A DNA stretch of 64,000 bases from Xanthomonas indica (GTDB lineage Bacteria > Pseudomonadota > Gammaproteobacteria > Xanthomonadales > Xanthomonadaceae). Below are positions 896 to 7,305 of the stretch, in pieces. The notes under the pieces were generated by a model. It was not told where the DNA came from. It worked only from the letters and a program-made list of their open reading frames with translations, and ran no database searches. The stretch covers positions 4,200,501-4,264,500 of the forward strand of contig NZ_CP131914.1 in the NCBI RefSeq assembly GCF_040529045.1, written 5' to 3'. Within the stretch, counting starts at the first letter, position 1. The number at the start of each line of letters is the position of its first letter. The translations under genes were made by a program, and so were the position numbers.

Positions 896-949
896 GTGCA
901 CGACGGCGAGGCACTGCTAAGCTCGCCGTTCCTGTCCGCGGAGTCTTCC

Positions 950-2365
950 ATGCGCCGTCTCGCCGTCGTCATCGCTGCCGTCCTGAGCCTCTCCTCCCCT
1001 GCCGTCGCCGCCGAGGCCACGCGCATTCCGGAGGCGGCGCTGCGCGATGCGGCGACGTTGCGCGAGCGTGCGCTGGCCGACGACACCGGCTGGAAGGTGG
1101 TCGAATCGCTGACCACCGAAATCGGCCCGCGCCTGGCCGGCAGCGAGGCCGATGCACGCGCGGTGGCCTGGGCCACGGCGAAATTCAAGGCACTGGGTTT
1201 CGACAAGGTGTGGACCGAGCCGGTGACCTTCCCGAAGTGGGAGCGACGCAGCGAACACGCGCAGGTGCTCGGCGCGCATGCGCAACCGCTGACCGTCACC
1301 GCGTTGGGCGGCAGCCCCGGCGGCACGGTCGAGGCCGAGGTGGTGCGCTTTGCCGACCTGGCCGCGTTGCAGGCGGCGCCCGCGGACGCGCTGCGCGGCA
1401 AGATCGCCTTCGTCGATTACCAGATGCTGCGCACGCGCGACGGCAAGGACTACGGCAATGGCGGCGCGGTGCGCAGCAAGGGGCCGTCGGAAGCGATCCG
1501 CAAGGGGGCCATCGGCTTCGTGATGCGCTCGGCCGGCACCGATTCGCACCGCGTGCCGCATACCGGCATCACCCGCTATGACGAGGGACTGACGCCGGTG
1601 CCGGCGGCGGCGCTGTCGGTGCCCGATGCCAACCAACTCACGCGCCTGCTCGCGCGCGGCCCGGTGCGCCTGCGCCTGGCGCTGGACTGCGGCTGGGACG
1701 GCACCGCCACCTCCTACAACGTGATCGGGCAGATCACCGGGCGCTCGCTGCCCAACGAGGTCGTGCTGATCGGCGGGCACCTGGATTCGTGGGACCTGGG
1801 CACCGGCGCGGTCGACGACGGTGCCGGCGTGGCCATCAGCATGGCCGCCGGGCATCTGATCGGCCAGCTCAAGCAGGCGCCCAAGCGCAGCATCCGCGTG
1901 GTCGCCTTCGCCAACGAGGAGCAGGGATTGTACGGCGGCAAGGCCTACGCGCAGGCGCATGCCAAGGACGTGGCGCGGCACCAGATCGCCGCCGAGAGCG
2001 ACTTCGGCGCCGGCCGCATCTACGCGTTCAACACCGGCTCCGGCGACGCCGCCGGCTCGCGCGAGGCGACCCGGCAGATCGCCGAGGCGCTGGCGCCGCT
2101 CGGCATCGCCTATGCGCCCGATGCCGGCGGCCCCGGCCCGGATGTCGGTCCGCTCGCGGCCAAGGGCGGCGCCTGGGCGTGGCTGGCGCAGGACGGCAGC
2201 GACTACTTCGATTTGCATCACACCGCCGACGACACCCTGGACAAGATCGACCCGAAGGCGCTGGCGCAGAACGTCGCCGCGTATGCGGTGTTCGCGTATC
2301 TGGCGGCGCAGGCCGATGGCGGTTTCGGCAGCCAGGCCAAGACAGTGGAACCGCCCAGGGAGTAA
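950..2365 (+). CDS. Secreted M28-family zinc metallopeptidase (aminopeptidase type)
   Basis: A 471-residue protein with an N-terminal signal peptide ending around AVAAEA. The ATG at 950 is chosen over an earlier in-frame ATG at 896 because it gives a clean signal sequence and has GGAG 8 bases upstream. M28 di-zinc ligands are visible in order: GGHLDSWD (His), GAVDDGAG (bridging Asp), NEEQGLYG (catalytic and ligand Glu), ESDFGAG (acidic ligand) and DLHHTADDT (His). A PA-type insertion (about residues 130-260) precedes the catalytic half. The family removes N-terminal amino acids from peptides in the periplasm or outside the cell. The neighbours give no further hint of the substrate. Confidence 0.92.
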   Translation: MRRLAVVIAAVLSLSSPAVAAEATRIPEAALRDAATLRERALADDTGWKVVESLTTEIGPRLAGSEADARAVAWATAKFKALGFDKVWTEPVTFPKWERRSEHAQVLGAHAQPLTVTALGGSPGGTVEAEVVRFADLAALQAAPADALRGKIAFVDYQMLRTRDGKDYGNGGAVRSKGPSEAIRKGAIGFVMRSAGTDSHRVPHTGITRYDEGLTPVPAAALSVPDANQLTRLLARGPVRLRLALDCGWDGTATSYNVIGQITGRSLPNEVVLIGGHLDSWDLGTGAVDDGAGVAISMAAGHLIGQLKQAPKRSIRVVAFANEEQGLYGGKAYAQAHAKDVARHQIAAESDFGAGRIYAFNTGSGDAAGSREATRQIAEALAPLGIAYAPDAGGPGPDVGPLAAKGGAWAWLAQDGSDYFDLHHTADDTLDKIDPKALAQNVAAYAVFAYLAAQADGGFGSQAKTVEPPRE

Positions 2366-2429: not shown

Positions 2430-3479
2430 ATGGGCATACGGCAACGCCGCGCGGGCTCAGCGGTGACGTTGCTGGATGTGGCCCGCCATGCGGGCGTGTC
2501 GCCGATGACCGCTTCGCGCGTGATCAACCGCCACCCGCGCGTGAGCGCGACCATGCGCGAGCGCGTCGAGGCGTCGATCCAGGCGCTCGGCTACCGCCCC
2601 AACCTCGCCGGCCGCTCGCTGCGCACTGCAGGACTGGCGCGCATCGGCGTGCTGTACAGCAATCCCAGCGCGGCCTACCTCAACCAGTTCATGCTCGGCG
2701 TGCTCGAGCGGAGCAGCCTGGAAGGCTGCCAGGTGCTGGTGGAGAAGAGCGAAGACAGCGACAGCCAGCGCGCCGCCACCGAACGCCTGCTCGATGCCGG
2801 CGCCGATGGCCTGATCCTGCCGCCGCCGCTGTGCGATGCGCGGCAGACCATCGCCGAACTGGACGCGCGCGGCATCCCGCTGGTGGCGGTGGCCACCGGC
2901 GCGCCGATGCCCGGGGTCAGCTCGGTGCGCATCGACGACTACGCGGCCGCATGCGCGCTCACCCAGCACCTGCTCGACCTGGGCCACCGCGACATCGGCT
3001 TTGTCAGCGGCGATCCCGGCCACACGCCCAGCGCGCTGCGCAGCCGCGGTTTCTTCGACACCATGGCCCGGGCCGGACTGACGGTGGCGCCGGAGCGCGT
3101 GGCCGAGGGCATGTTCACCTACCGCTCCGGCCTGCTTGCGGCCACCGCACTGCTGCAGGTCGCGCCGCGCCCCAGCGCGATCCTGTGCAGCAACGACGAC
3201 ATGGCCGCAGCGGCGCTGGCGATCGCGCACGGGTTGCGCCTGCGCGTGCCGGACGATCTGTCCATCGCCGGCTTCGACGACACACCGGTGGCGACCACGA
3301 TCTGGCCGGAGCTGACCACCATCCACCAGCCGGTGGCGGCGATGGGCGGGGCGGCGGTGACGCTGCTGCTCGGCGAGATCCGCCAGCGCCGCGATGGCCT
3401 GCCCAGCCGCGGCACCCACCAGGTGCTGGACTACACCCTGGTCACGCGCGCGTCCACCGCGCCGCCTGCGGCGGGCTGA
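2430..3479 (+). CDS. LacI-family transcriptional regulator
   Basis: A 349-residue regulator. The N-terminal helix-turn-helix (VTLLDVARHAGVSPMTASRV, residues 12-31) and hinge helix (YRPNLAGRSLRT) are followed by a periplasmic-binding-protein-like effector domain with typical motifs (DGLILPPP, GHRDIGFVSGD, SILCSNDDMAA-like, DLSIAGFDDTP). Such proteins usually repress sugar or nucleoside catabolic genes and release DNA on ligand binding. The longer upstream open frame lies inside the peptidase gene, so ATG 2430 is chosen. It is convergent with the P450 gene, with only 27 bases between the stops; it may or may not regulate that locus. No obvious sugar operon lies next to it. Confidence 0.92.
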   Translation: MGIRQRRAGSAVTLLDVARHAGVSPMTASRVINRHPRVSATMRERVEASIQALGYRPNLAGRSLRTAGLARIGVLYSNPSAAYLNQFMLGVLERSSLEGCQVLVEKSEDSDSQRAATERLLDAGADGLILPPPLCDARQTIAELDARGIPLVAVATGAPMPGVSSVRIDDYAAACALTQHLLDLGHRDIGFVSGDPGHTPSALRSRGFFDTMARAGLTVAPERVAEGMFTYRSGLLAATALLQVAPRPSAILCSNDDMAAAALAIAHGLRLRVPDDLSIAGFDDTPVATTIWPELTTIHQPVAAMGGAAVTLLLGEIRQRRDGLPSRGTHQVLDYTLVTRASTAPPAAG

Positions 3480-3506
3480 TCGCGACGGCGACGCGTGCGC
3501 TGCCGC

Positions 3507-4556
3507 TCAGGCGCGCGCGTGCCGGACCGCGTCGACCTGGGCGACGCCCAGCAGGCCGGTCAACGGCACGTCGGCGCGGCGTTGCCGCGGGTCGGCCACC
3601 AACCCCTGGTTGCGCAGCAGGTCCAGCAGCCGCTCGGCCAGCGGCATGACCATGTGCCGGCCCCAGCACCGTTCGGACGCATGCCCGAACGGCAGGTAGC
3701 CCGGCAAGGCATCGGGATCCACGCCGTCCCAGCGCTCCGGGCGGAACGCCTCCGGCTTCTCCCACAGCGCCGGATCGCGATGGCTGAGCAAGGGCAGCAC
3801 CAGCACGTCGTCGGCGGCGCCGATGCGCGGATCCAGCGCACCGTATTCCGGCGAGGCGTTGCGCAGGATGTTCCAGGACGGCGGCAGCAGGCGCAGGGAT
3901 TCGTAGAGCAGGTTGCGGTTGGAGACGCGCGGGTCGAACGGCGACCCCAGCCACAGCGCATTGGCGACCAGCGTGGAAATGGTGAAGCACACCGGGGCGG
4001 CGGTGCGCCGGTACAGGCCCATCGCATCGCGGCGTGCACGGTAGCCGTCGGCCGCCGACAGCAGCGTGGCCAACGCCGAGGCGTCTGCGCCCGGCGCCAG
4101 CGGCGCGAGCGCGCCGGCGGCGATCATCGCCCAGGTCAGGCGCGGCGTCAGTTCCAGGGTGCGGTCCATCAGCAGGCGCAGCCGCCACGGGTCGCCGCCG
4201 AGCAGCAGATCGCGCAGATAGACATGGCCGACATGCGGCCAGGGACCGGACAGGTCGAGCGTCGGCGGCGGCGGGCGCTTCAGCGCCTCGCGTACATCGC
4301 GACCGATCGCCTGCATCAGCTTGGCGGCCTCGCTGCGCGCGATCGAACGGCCGTGCAGCGGCTTGAAGGTCGGCCGTTCGTACTCGGTGGCGGGCCGCGC
4401 CGCGAGCAGGCGGTCGCCCAGCGCGGCGCCGGCGACGCCGACCGTGTCGGCATCCAGGCGGAAGGCTTCCTGTCCCACATGCGTGCGCAGCAATGCCTGC
4501 AGGCGCGGCGCGAAGACCGTGGCGCGCGCGTCGCGGTCGACCGGGGTGGCGGACAT
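3507..4556 (-). CDS. Short cytochrome P450, putative peptide-crosslinking enzyme of an atropopeptide-type RiPP locus
   Basis: A 349-residue protein, shorter than the usual 400 or so. P450 landmarks are clear: the K-helix ExxR (ESLR, residues 219-222), the PERW motif (273-276) and the haem-ligand loop FGHASERCWG (290-299) with Cys297 as thiolate ligand. The expected I-helix region (about 183-200) lacks the usual acid-Thr pair, which is seen in some P450s that couple radicals rather than insert oxygen; this is inference. ATG 4556 is chosen because AAGAG lies about 8 bases upstream and the N-terminal extension from 4631 is Arg-rich and unlike a protein. It lies 88 bases downstream of, and on the same strand as, a 26-residue peptide ending YAWYIWY. 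In Streptomyces, one P450 acting on such a peptide makes the C-C and C-N bonds between Trp and Tyr of tryptorubin. The predicted role is the same oxidative cyclisation here. Confidence 0.9.
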   Translation of the reverse strand: MSATPVDRDARATVFAPRLQALLRTHVGQEAFRLDADTVGVAGAALGDRLLAARPATEYERPTFKPLHGRSIARSEAAKLMQAIGRDVREALKRPPPPTLDLSGPWPHVGHVYLRDLLLGGDPWRLRLLMDRTLELTPRLTWAMIAAGALAPLAPGADASALATLLSAADGYRARRDAMGLYRRTAAPVCFTISTLVANALWLGSPFDPRVSNRNLLYESLRLLPPSWNILRNASPEYGALDPRIGAADDVLVLPLLSHRDPALWEKPEAFRPERWDGVDPDALPGYLPFGHASERCWGRHMVMPLAERLLDLLRNQGLVADPRQRRADVPLTGLLGVAQVDAVRHARA

Positions 4557-4644
4557 CGCGAATCTCTTGGAGGAACGGCGCCCGACGCAGCGTCTCCGCC
4601 GGGCGCCGGCCGCACGCGAAGCGCGCGGCAACGCACAGGGGCGC

Positions 4645-4725
4645 TCAGTACCAGATGTACCAGGCGTACGACTTCAGCGGCTTCTTCGACGACAGCAGGT
4701 GCTTGATGGAGAACAGCAGCTTCAT
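4645..4725 (-). CDS. Atropopeptide/tryptorubin-like RiPP precursor peptide (26 aa)
   Basis: A 26-codon gene starting MKLLFSIKH, with a basic KKPLKS stretch before the C-terminal heptapeptide YAWYIWY and a TGA stop at 4645-4647. The final six residues AWYIWY are, from published knowledge, the exact sequence of tryptorubin A. The leader is short (about 19-20 residues), basic and amphipathic, and the core holds no Cys, Ser or Thr, so P450 side-chain coupling is the only evident chemistry. ATG 4725 has GGAGA 9 bases upstream; the longer in-frame start at 4884 gives an Arg-rich, unlikely extension. The P450 gene follows on the same strand. No dedicated peptidase or transporter is next to it, so the leader would be removed by host peptidases, as proposed for atropopeptides. 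A type I toxin or random ORF is possible but does not explain the core identity. Confidence 0.88.
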   Translation of the reverse strand: MKLLFSIKHLLSSKKPLKSYAWYIWY

Positions 4726-4930
4726 GAGCGATATCTCCGCAGGAGTGACGACGACCCTTTCGGGGGAGGACTGCGCGGTCTCGCTGGCGCGCATCGCGCG
4801 GGGCGCGATCGCATCGACGAGGCGCGCCTGCACGCTACGCCGCCGACAGTCGCCCCGCAAACCCGAACAGGCACGTGCGCACACTATTTCGTAGCCAAAT
4901 GCCGGCCGTCCTCAACGCGTAACGCCGTGC
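4726..4930 (-). promoter_or_regulatory. Putative promoter/leader region of the RiPP locus
   Basis: A 205-base gap between the RNA methyltransferase stop and the precursor ATG. It is locally less GC-rich around 4880-4915. A weak sigma70-like pair can be read on the minus strand: TTGAGG (4915-4910), a 16-base spacer and TACGAA (4893-4888). The match is poor, so only the presence of a separate promoter somewhere here is suggested. Confidence 0.3.
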
Positions 4931-5773
4931 TCAGCGCGCGGCGGATCCGTGCGGATGCCGGCTGCGCCAGGTCCCCAGCAATACCGCCGTGGCGGCGGCG
5001 ACGTTGAGGCTTTCCACCGCGCCGCTGCCCGGGATCGACAGGCGCAGGTCGCAGGCCTGCGCGAAGTCGCGGTCCATGCCGTCGCTCTCGGCGCCCATCA
5101 CGTAGACAAGCCGTTGCGGCAAGGCCGTGGCGAACAGATCGTCGCCGCCGGCCACCAGCGTCGCCGCCAGGGCGAAGCCCGCGCCGCGCAATTGCGCCTG
5201 CGCCTGCATCGCCGGCGGCAGCCGCACCAGCGGCACCGCCTCGGCGCCGCCCTCGGCCACGCGTGCGGCGGCACCGGACAGCGCCAGCGCGGCCTGCTCC
5301 GGCAACAGGATCGCGCCCACGCCGAAATGCGCCGCCGAGCGCAGGATCGCGCCGAAGTTGTGCGGATTGCCGACGCCATCCAGCCACAGCGCCACCACCG
5401 GTCCCGGCGCCAGCGTCTGCAGCCAGTCGGCCAAGGCCAGCGGCGCAACGCGCAGCACGTCGGCGACCACGCCCTCGTGGTGGCTGCTGGCGGCGAGCTT
5501 GTGCAGATCGGCCTCGTCCACCACGCGGTAGCCGACCCGATTGGCCACGCACCACTTCAGCAGCGGCTGCAGCGCCGGGATCCGCGCCTCGCTCAGGTAC
5601 AGCTTGCGGATCGCCTCCGGGCGCCGCGCGTACACCGCGCGCACGGCGTTGAGGCCGTACAGGCGCAGTTCGCTGCGGTTGGTCGCGGACGCCGCACCCT
5701 CACCCCCGGCCCCTCTGCCGGGGGGAGCGGGGGGATTGCCGCCGCGCGGGCGATTGCCCCACGGCGAGGTCAT
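4931..5773 (-). CDS. TrmH/SpoU-family RNA 2'-O-methyltransferase, YfiF-like
   Basis: A 280-residue protein. An N-terminal substrate-binding domain (YGLNAVRAVYARRPEAI to VVDEADLHKLA) precedes a SPOUT catalytic domain with motif 1 NPHNFGAILRSA, motif 2 around VYVMGAESDGM and motif 3 SIPGSGAVESLNVAAAT, which form the SAM-binding trefoil knot. The sequence resembles E. coli YfiF more than RlmB, so the RNA target is uncertain. The first 30 or so residues are odd: Pro/Gly-rich, and encoded partly by a copy of the dispersed 'CCCTCACCCC' repeat (5695-5734). No alternative start codon occurs between this segment and the conserved domain, so the gene seems to have absorbed the repeat as its N-terminus. 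No good ribosome-binding site is seen before ATG 5773. Confidence 0.88.
   Translation of the reverse strand: MTSPWGNRPRGGNPPAPPGRGAGGEGAASATNRSELRLYGLNAVRAVYARRPEAIRKLYLSEARIPALQPLLKWCVANRVGYRVVDEADLHKLAASSHHEGVVADVLRVAPLALADWLQTLAPGPVVALWLDGVGNPHNFGAILRSAAHFGVGAILLPEQAALALSGAAARVAEGGAEAVPLVRLPPAMQAQAQLRGAGFALAATLVAGGDDLFATALPQRLVYVMGAESDGMDRDFAQACDLRLSIPGSGAVESLNVAAATAVLLGTWRSRHPHGSAAR
5695..5734. repeat. Dispersed CCCTCACCCC-type palindromic repeat inside a coding sequence
   Basis: A single degenerate copy of the element that forms a tandem array at 47801-48544 (pattern ACCCTCACCCCCGGCCCC followed by its inverted half). It encodes the Pro/Gly-rich residues near the N-terminus of the RNA methyltransferase. 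Confidence 0.65.
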
Positions 5774-6243
5774 TGGCGCACGCCCGTGGCGCAGCGGGAA
5801 CGAAGGGCATGACGCATGGCAATCTCCTGAAAAAAGCGTGGGCCGCTCGTCGGGAACGGCGGGTTGCGGGCATTTTCGCTCATCCGCGCGCCGCCGGCTG
5901 CCCCGGCGTGGTCAATCGCGGCACCGCCACTTGTCTACATCGCGCGACACGAAGCGCAAACCAGATCGCGGCGGCGACCGAGAAGCAGTTCACCCTCGCC
6001 CGCACCATGCGGGATTCGCGGCGCGGCATGCGGAAATCCGACAAGCGCGCGCTGCGCGTTGGGTCCATCGTCGCCGCTTCCCCAGCAATCACGCAGGCCT
6101 TTATCGAGCGCAGCCACGTCCCATCCCACTCGCTTCGCAGGCGGGAGGCACGCCGCGACCGTGGGCGCCGCAACGCGCCGCGCCGCTGCGCCGGATGGCC
6201 TCCCGAGAACGCATTCCGCATTCTCACGACAAGGCGAACTTCC
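5774..6243. other. Gene-free interval between divergent genes
   Basis: About 470 bases without a convincing coding region, between the leftward RNA methyltransferase and the rightward secreted-protein gene. An open frame runs into the downstream gene, but its translation is Arg/Ala-rich with no recognisable content. It presumably holds both promoters; no clear sites were identified. Confidence 0.6.
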
Positions 6244-7305
6244 ATGCACTCCGAGCTCCGCACCTCCTCCTGGACCGCGCGCCACCATGCCTGCGCCGCA
6301 TTGCTGCTGATGCTGGCGCTGTTCGGCCTCAGCGCGAGCGCGCTGGCGCAGACCGCCGCGCCCGATGCGCGCCTGGCCCGGGCCGGCGCCCTGCGCGCCG
6401 CGCACAAACCCGCCGACGTCCCCGACGACTACATCCAGACGCCCTTCGGCTACTTCGCGCCGGCCTGCGTGCGCCAGGTCCATCGCAACGAACGCATCCT
6501 GGGCGACGGGCTCGTGCAGCGCGCCGACGGCGTGCGCGAACAGGCGCAGGCCTGCACGCAGGACAACTTCACGCCCAGCGGTATCCGGGTACGACCTGAC
6601 GGACGCGGCGTGGATGGCCGGCAAGTCCGCGGCAACGCCGCACTGGCGGCCTCCAGCGCCCGCCGCGCGGTGCCGCCGCCGATCACCCACGACTGGGTGC
6701 AAGCAGCCATCGACGTGACCGGCAACAAGATGGGCCGCATCGTGGCCAGTTGGACGGTGCCGCAGAACCCGACCAACGTGGCGCAGCAGACGGTGTACTT
6801 CTTCCCCGGGATGCAGAGCGACGACCCGACCATCCTGCAACCGGTGCTGGGCTACCGCGGCGACAGCGACACCTGGGATCTGAGCAGTTGGAACTGCTGC
6901 CAGGACGGCATGGTGTGGTACAGCGATTTCATCCCGGCCAAGGCCGGCGACCGCATCGTGGGCGACACCTATGCCACCTGCAACAACGGCAGCCCCTGCG
7001 CGAACTGGAACGTCGACACGCGCAACGTGACCAGCGGCCAGAGCGTGCGGCTCAGCACCACCTACGACATCAATTCCCGGACGCACCTGGTGGTGGGCGG
7101 CGCGCTGGAGGTGTATGCGGTGGACAGTTGCGACCAGTATCCGCCCGACCGCCGCATCACCTTCGAGTCGATCGGCGTGTACGACTACCGCATGCAACGG
7201 GTGACGTCACCGGCGTGGGTGTCGTACATCGACAGCTCCGGCCTGGACGTGCAGTGCGACTACGCCGTGGATACCACCGCCACCTCGGCGACCATTTCCT
7301 ACTGA
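6244..7305 (+). CDS. Secreted protein of unknown function with a beta-sandwich-like C-terminal domain
   Basis: A 353-residue protein with a strong signal peptide (hydrophobic LLLMLALFGLSASA, cleavage near ALAQ). The mature N-terminal third is Arg/Ala-rich. From about residue 150 the sequence becomes Trp/Tyr-rich and strand-like: IVASWTVPQ, VYFFPGMQ, TILQPVLGYRG, SSWNCCQDGMVWYSDFIP and AGDRIVGDTYA, followed by TSGQSVRLSTTYD. The order Q, then W/aromatic, then a GD-I segment faintly recalls G1 (eqolisin-type) glutamic peptidase sandwiches, but no catalytic Gln/Glu pair can be assigned with confidence. Cys residues suggest disulfides outside the cytoplasm. ATG 6244 is chosen because it starts the signal peptide. 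The gene is alone, ending at a bidirectional terminator. Confidence 0.8.
   Translation: MHSELRTSSWTARHHACAALLLMLALFGLSASALAQTAAPDARLARAGALRAAHKPADVPDDYIQTPFGYFAPACVRQVHRNERILGDGLVQRADGVREQAQACTQDNFTPSGIRVRPDGRGVDGRQVRGNAALAASSARRAVPPPITHDWVQAAIDVTGNKMGRIVASWTVPQNPTNVAQQTVYFFPGMQSDDPTILQPVLGYRGDSDTWDLSSWNCCQDGMVWYSDFIPAKAGDRIVGDTYATCNNGSPCANWNVDTRNVTSGQSVRLSTTYDINSRTHLVVGGALEVYAVDSCDQYPPDRRITFESIGVYDYRMQRVTSPAWVSYIDSSGLDVQCDYAVDTTATSATISY

Follow-up and report, generated by a model that had tools for sequence, protein, structure and literature searches.

A probable tryptorubin-family gene cluster in Xanthomonas indica

Does a Gram-negative genus carry a working pathway for a tryptorubin-like peptide, and, if so, which product would be made? 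The question is raised by two adjacent genes in a 64,000-nucleotide stretch of Xanthomonas indica DNA (the window). An earlier note made from the sequence had read the span 3507-4725 as an atropopeptide precursor gene, its core being that of tryptorubin A, adjacent to the cognate cytochrome P450 gene; the boundaries were exact and the reading was right. The locus is genuine and conserved, and it is apparently intact. It belongs to a known family, and its host genus is already known for such clusters. Very probably it is a two-gene atropopeptide cluster, that is, a RiPP cluster of the tryptorubin family.

The gene pair and its relatives

The precursor gene (4645..4725, minus strand) runs from ATG to TGA and encodes 26 residues with the C-terminal end YAWYIWY, as had been noted. 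The peptide is composed of the leader MKLLFSIKHLLSSK, KPLK at residues 15-18, and then SYAWYIWY with the core AWYIWY. Thus Trp is present at core position 2, and the motif before the core is an accepted variant of KSLK. The precursor passes the NCBIfam model of the tryptorubin family, NF038372, with 54.7 bits at a cut-off of 33. The 18 bases encoding AWYIWY have a single exact occurrence in the 4.81-Mb genome. Just 5' of the start codon lies GGAGATATCGCTC, which seven aligned sequences share except for one A/G site and, in L092, a one-base gap.

The gene of the atropopeptide-modifying P450 (3507..4556, minus strand, 349 aa from ATG) follows after 88 bases (4644-4557), the distance given in the earlier note. 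The P450 fold, the Cys haem ligand and the ExxR motif (ESLR at residues 219-222) were all found by fold comparison and a motif check. Among the matches listed in the fold comparison, 50 of 50 rows per table are cytochrome P450s, and among solved structures compared by sequence there were matches to 23 cytochrome P450s, the best at E 1.3e-7. The usual motifs of P450s are the haem loop FxxGxxxCxG and the I-helix [AG]Gx[DE][TS]. The haem-Cys loop noted before does exist, as FGHASERCWG at residues 290-299, but it is a variant that deviates from the usual pattern, and the I-helix motif is absent from the P450 sequence. Assignment to the ApyO-type (aminopyruvatide) P450s was rejected, as the score against NF050147 is 65.6 bits, far under the cut-off of 525. 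Other precursor-bearing P450s score similarly (L071, 60.4; L009, 62.4; L045, 70.1 bits).

Relatives were collected from one genome per species, and the best 80 of 94 loci were kept: 11 from Xanthomonas, six from other Proteobacteria (Collimonas, Burkholderia, Dyella, Luteibacter) and 63 from actinobacteria. Among these best 80, a like precursor lies upstream of the P450 in 79, at 49 to 234 bases from the precursor end to the aligned P450. The sole locus lacking it, L077, aligns to P450 residues 147-344 only. The pair therefore recurs in genomes, as the earlier note had proposed to check, and the P450 groups with atropopeptide P450s, both in the tree described below and by its 61% identity over 338 residues to the P450 of Amycolatopsis xylanica (L071). 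One Xanthomonas locus, L096 (G012), has two precursors before one P450, with the cores SWPHWY and AWEGYISY. On plasmids, relatives of the P450 were found in 18 of 72,556 records (16 from Streptomyces, two from Embleya). Hits H1-H10 are on large plasmids of Streptomyces clavuligerus, by which the genes may have spread.

The Pfam P450 match is limited to residues 216-302, and one could imagine a P450 of some other, catabolic function beside a small ORF that arose by chance. The probability of this is negligible. The uniqueness of the 18-base core, the NF038372 match and the like precursors at 79 of the best 80 related loci together argue against a chance origin, and conservation of the pair and the position of the P450 in the tree rule out both the chance ORF and the catabolic enzyme. 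Hence the outcome that was to refute the earlier note, an unrelated P450 group with an unconserved small ORF, did not occur.

No genes for a redox partner, an exporter or a dedicated protease were recognised in the cluster. Elsewhere in the genome, five 2Fe-2S ferredoxin domains score over the cut-off, and Pfam finds one other P450 (L150, G000:C1:4682622-4683941). The latter sits within a 1377-residue open frame and is perhaps a reductase fusion.

Descent and the genomic site

The unrooted P450 tree had 87 rows, of which 24 were proteobacterial (18 of them from Xanthomonas) and 63 actinobacterial; the broken P450s of L077 and L078 were left out. All 24 proteobacterial P450s lie on one side of a branch (support 99/99), and the 18 Xanthomonas P450s are likewise set apart (100/99). 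In a published rooted tree, the tested P450s from Pseudomonadota are furthest from the root (PMC12352619). Taken together, the single proteobacterial clade and the rooted tree suggest one transfer from actinobacteria into Proteobacteria as the simplest reading, where the direction is what we infer. Between-phyla transfers of atropopeptide clusters have been deduced from G+C content (PMC11450843). In the window, G+C is 0.734 in the P450 gene and 0.714 overall, so that the G+C looks native, as the earlier note had said, and gives no sign of a recent foreign import.

AWYIWY is the core in 11 of the 18 Xanthomonas rows, two of the six other proteobacterial rows and 16 of the 63 actinobacterial rows, a distribution that takes 16 or more changes of state along the branches of the tree. 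This agrees with a published remark that the core may have arisen several times (PMC11450843). KPLK is found in eight of the 87 rows, only in Xanthomonas.

One possibility is that the cluster is silent or decaying, with intact genes whose product is no longer made. Its presence is indeed patchy. P450 matches were found in nine of 20 genomes of the genus, eight at full length and one, G004, as a C-terminal remnant. In the family sample 21 of 395 genomes match, confined to two of 54 genera, and the copies in four of these 21 are disrupted (G004, G108, G228 and G372, the last being L003), which means that the pathway is dispensable. However, the disrupted copies are a minority, and both genes of the pair look maintained. 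The precursor protein is unchanged in five of the six nearest relatives, the sixth (L095) having one I-to-L change. In five comparisons with the window, dN/dS of the P450 is 0.10-0.15 at dS of 0.09-0.35; L095 was left out, as an indel makes its gapless value (1.54) meaningless. We thus consider decay at this locus decidedly unlikely.

In each of the six nearest relatives, zero or one of the 81 precursor bases differs. Synonymous sites of the precursor, some 17 and thus few, look constrained as well. Near-invariance of these sites in 4645-4725 despite P450 dS of up to 0.35 may reflect a constraint on the RNA.

The pair occupies a recognisable site. Upstream is a housekeeping neighbour, the gene of a SpoU-family, RlmB-like RNA methyltransferase (4931..5773, minus strand), identified by Pfam over the cut-off; the NCBIfam RlmB models match it below their cut-offs. 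This gene is present in all 20 genomes of the genus. The ORF next to it, at 5773-7305, has no Pfam hit. Between the methyltransferase and precursor genes there is a block conserved in the alignment of seven near relatives (4877..4902, minus strand), a possible promoter region. A sigma-70 promoter scan of 3300-5000 found none, and the block has no consensus match. On the other side, convergent with the P450 gene, lies a LacI-family regulator gene (2430..3479, plus strand, Pfam). It adjoins the site both in P450-positive and in P450-negative genomes, and probably marks the site without being a part of the pathway.

Next to the LacI gene is the gene of an M28-family peptidase (896..2365, plus strand, Pfam). 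Frequent association of Xanthomonas atropopeptide clusters with proteases has been reported (PMC11450843), and the M28 peptidase might be a pathway member that cleaves off the leader or trims the N-terminal Ala. The conserved linkage is consistent with this: genes for LacI, M28, MscL and FAA-hydrolase are found past the P450 gene both in the window and in six of the seven other genomes of the genus with a full-length P450, so that M28 is two genes off in seven of eight. The same neighbours occur in all nine loci of the other Xanthomonas group. However, the P450s are disrupted in three of these nine (L003, L077, L078), the M28 gene is on the opposite strand behind the LacI gene, and one genome, G012, has kept the P450 with no M28 match at the site. 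Moreover, the genus has 11 genomes without the P450, and in nine of them LacI with the adjoining M28 was present in the sequence fetched past rlmB; the LacI of one, G019, is only 59% identical. The other two have a contig end at the site or no LacI within 8 kb.

A nearly full carboxylesterase (assigned by Pfam; 467-501 of 501 residues aligned) lies between rlmB and LacI in six of these nine P450-negative genomes, and also in the genome where LacI is out of reach; one further P450-negative genome has a fragment. No carboxylesterase match was found in the genomes of the genus with a full-length P450. The nearly full genes after rlmB are those of L132, L133, L137, L144, L145, L147 and L148, none with the pair. 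In the remnant genome G004 (L134, about 1304-2030), the rlmB-LacI interval contains carboxylesterase fragments followed by the P450 remnant, which suggests that the carboxylesterase and P450 genes were formerly side by side there. Genes have thus been lost at this site in different lineages. Together with M28 in P450-negative genomes, this makes the M28-P450 linkage look positional, and a pathway role of the peptidase unlikely. The published hint at neighbouring proteases is weakened accordingly, although for M28 at this site only, as the section of PMC11450843 concerned names no protease family. Overall, the data suggest that after the transfer the pair was inherited, or lost, at one Xanthomonas site.

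Predicted hairpins in the intercistronic gap

The RNA of the gap between the precursor and P450 genes is predicted to fold into two hairpins, both on the minus strand: hairpin 1 with nine pairs (4609..4629) and hairpin 2 with 12 outer pairs (4576..4608). The pattern of the latter occurs once in the window. In the seven nearest sequences pairing is retained in 98.6% of 147 cells, compared with 28-50% when the partners are slid, and the observed pairing level was attained by 20 of 500 shuffles. There is little covariation: a single pair differs at both of its positions, in three sequences, and 436 of 500 shuffles reach the same count.

Stable folding of the gap is common in the family. Against dinucleotide shuffles, z is below -2 in the gap at 61 of 86 loci, compared with 18 of 86 upstream of the precursor and four of 86 inside the P450 gene; L077 and L078 (broken P450s) and L100 were omitted. 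When the P450s are clustered at 85% and each cluster is represented by one sequence, the gap passes in 30 of 42 cases, the upstream region in seven and the coding region in three (Wilcoxon p 1.3e-7 for gap against upstream, 2.3e-9 for gap against coding). In Xanthomonas alone the excess is weak (z below -2 in six of 17 gaps and five of 17 upstream regions). The gap of the window has z of -2.3; of its six nearest relatives, five are at -0.7 to -1.5 and one at +0.3. As these values are modest, the case for the hairpins at this locus depends on the fact that pairing is conserved, and not on an excess of stability.

The hairpin is not a dispersed repeat, as the 29 other matches in the genome at E up to 1 are all weak (best E 0.008). 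Neither is it a classic terminator, since the scan found none. No Rfam family scored over its gathering score in 3300-5100, the only match being to a CRISPR repeat (19 bits against 39).

The hairpins would probably protect the precursor message and restrain expression of the P450 gene. When a ribosome-binding site was placed in front of the P450 gene in the sva cluster of Streptomyces, the yield rose 100-fold (PMC11450843). This would fit normally poor expression of the P450 gene, and the RNA element may explain the gain. The main texts of PMC11450843 and PMC12352619 make no mention of a hairpin, stem-loop, terminator, attenuation, intergenic element or ferredoxin, and a search of the literature for tryptorubin together with such elements listed no paper that mentions tryptorubin.

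Predicted product and known systems

The following pathway may be proposed. The 26-residue precursor would be translated and docked on the P450 by its leader and KPLK. Redox partners encoded elsewhere would feed electrons to the P450, which would crosslink the side chains of Trp and Tyr in AWYIWY and also one of its backbone nitrogens. In atropopeptides such P450-made crosslinks come with an unusual atropisomer. The leader would then be cut off by proteases of the cell, which may also trim the N-terminal Ala. The expected product would be tryptorubin A, AWYIWY minus 4 H ([M+H]+ 897.39), or alternatively the pentapeptide B form ([M+H]+ 826.36). The loss of 4 H for three bonds is taken from varsorubin B1 (three bonds, minus 4 H) and laurentirubin (four bonds, minus 6 H) (PMC11450843).

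That the product is tryptorubin A or B is a prediction we favour with some reserve. The same core led to the same product with the P450s of jum and amyxirubin, which share 59% identity, and LauB1 with LauA gave tryptorubin B (PMC11450843). On the other hand, there is an appreciable, although smaller, chance that the cluster joins the same core by other bonds, for instance by one bridge alone, either Trp-Trp or Trp-Tyr (minus 2 H). One P450, SvaB, makes two non-overlapping bond patterns from one core (PMC11450843), so that an identical core need not yield identical bonds, and ScaB turned 11 of 13 added precursors into monocyclic peptides, five of them from Pseudomonadota (PMC12352619).

The full scenario, in which a Gram-negative Xanthomonas makes authentic tryptorubin A by a pathway acquired once from an actinobacterium and descended at one site, with the P450 limited by an undescribed family-wide double hairpin, is somewhat less likely than not to hold as a whole. 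According to a 2025 paper, atropopeptides from Pseudomonadota had yet to be reported (PMC12352619). The intact pair offers a route to the first native atropopeptide from a Gram-negative bacterium, the role of which is accessible by gene removal.

Among known systems, the trp cluster of tryptorubin (Streptomyces; NF038372) is the closest in plan: it too has a short precursor, the AWYIWY core and a P450 gene directly downstream, and the two genes suffice. It differs in having KSLK in place of KPLK, in its host, Streptomyces and not Xanthomonas, and in that its product has been demonstrated. In A. xylanica, named as the amyxirubin producer (PMC11450843) and belonging to another phylum, the precursor of L071 ends in YAWYIWW, with W as the last core residue where the window has Y; its P450 is presumably the amyxirubin P450 itself. 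The biarylitides are similar in that a ribosomal peptide has its aromatic side chains joined by a P450 (P450Blt). However, their precursor has five residues and that of the window 26, and P450Blt is an outgroup to the atropopeptide P450s (PMC12352619).

Nearer to the host, the Xat, Xaa, Xam, Xav, Xvp and Xvv precursors from Pseudomonadota (PMC12352619) belong to the same kind of gene pair, as do the Xanthomonas clusters of the 2024 AtropoFinder survey (PMC11450843). The survey describes such clusters as abundant in Xanthomonas, and thus the novelty outside Actinobacteria suggested in the earlier note does not hold. It also states the rule of a conserved Trp at core position 2 and accepts six motifs, one of them the KPLK found here, so that members of the KPLK group were probably within it. 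Several of its Xanthomonas clusters have xWxxYx cores, whereas the window has the xWxxWx core of tryptorubin (PMC11450843). To these already known Xanthomonas clusters the present analysis adds the proteobacterial clade, the positional nature of the M28 linkage, and the hairpins in the gap.
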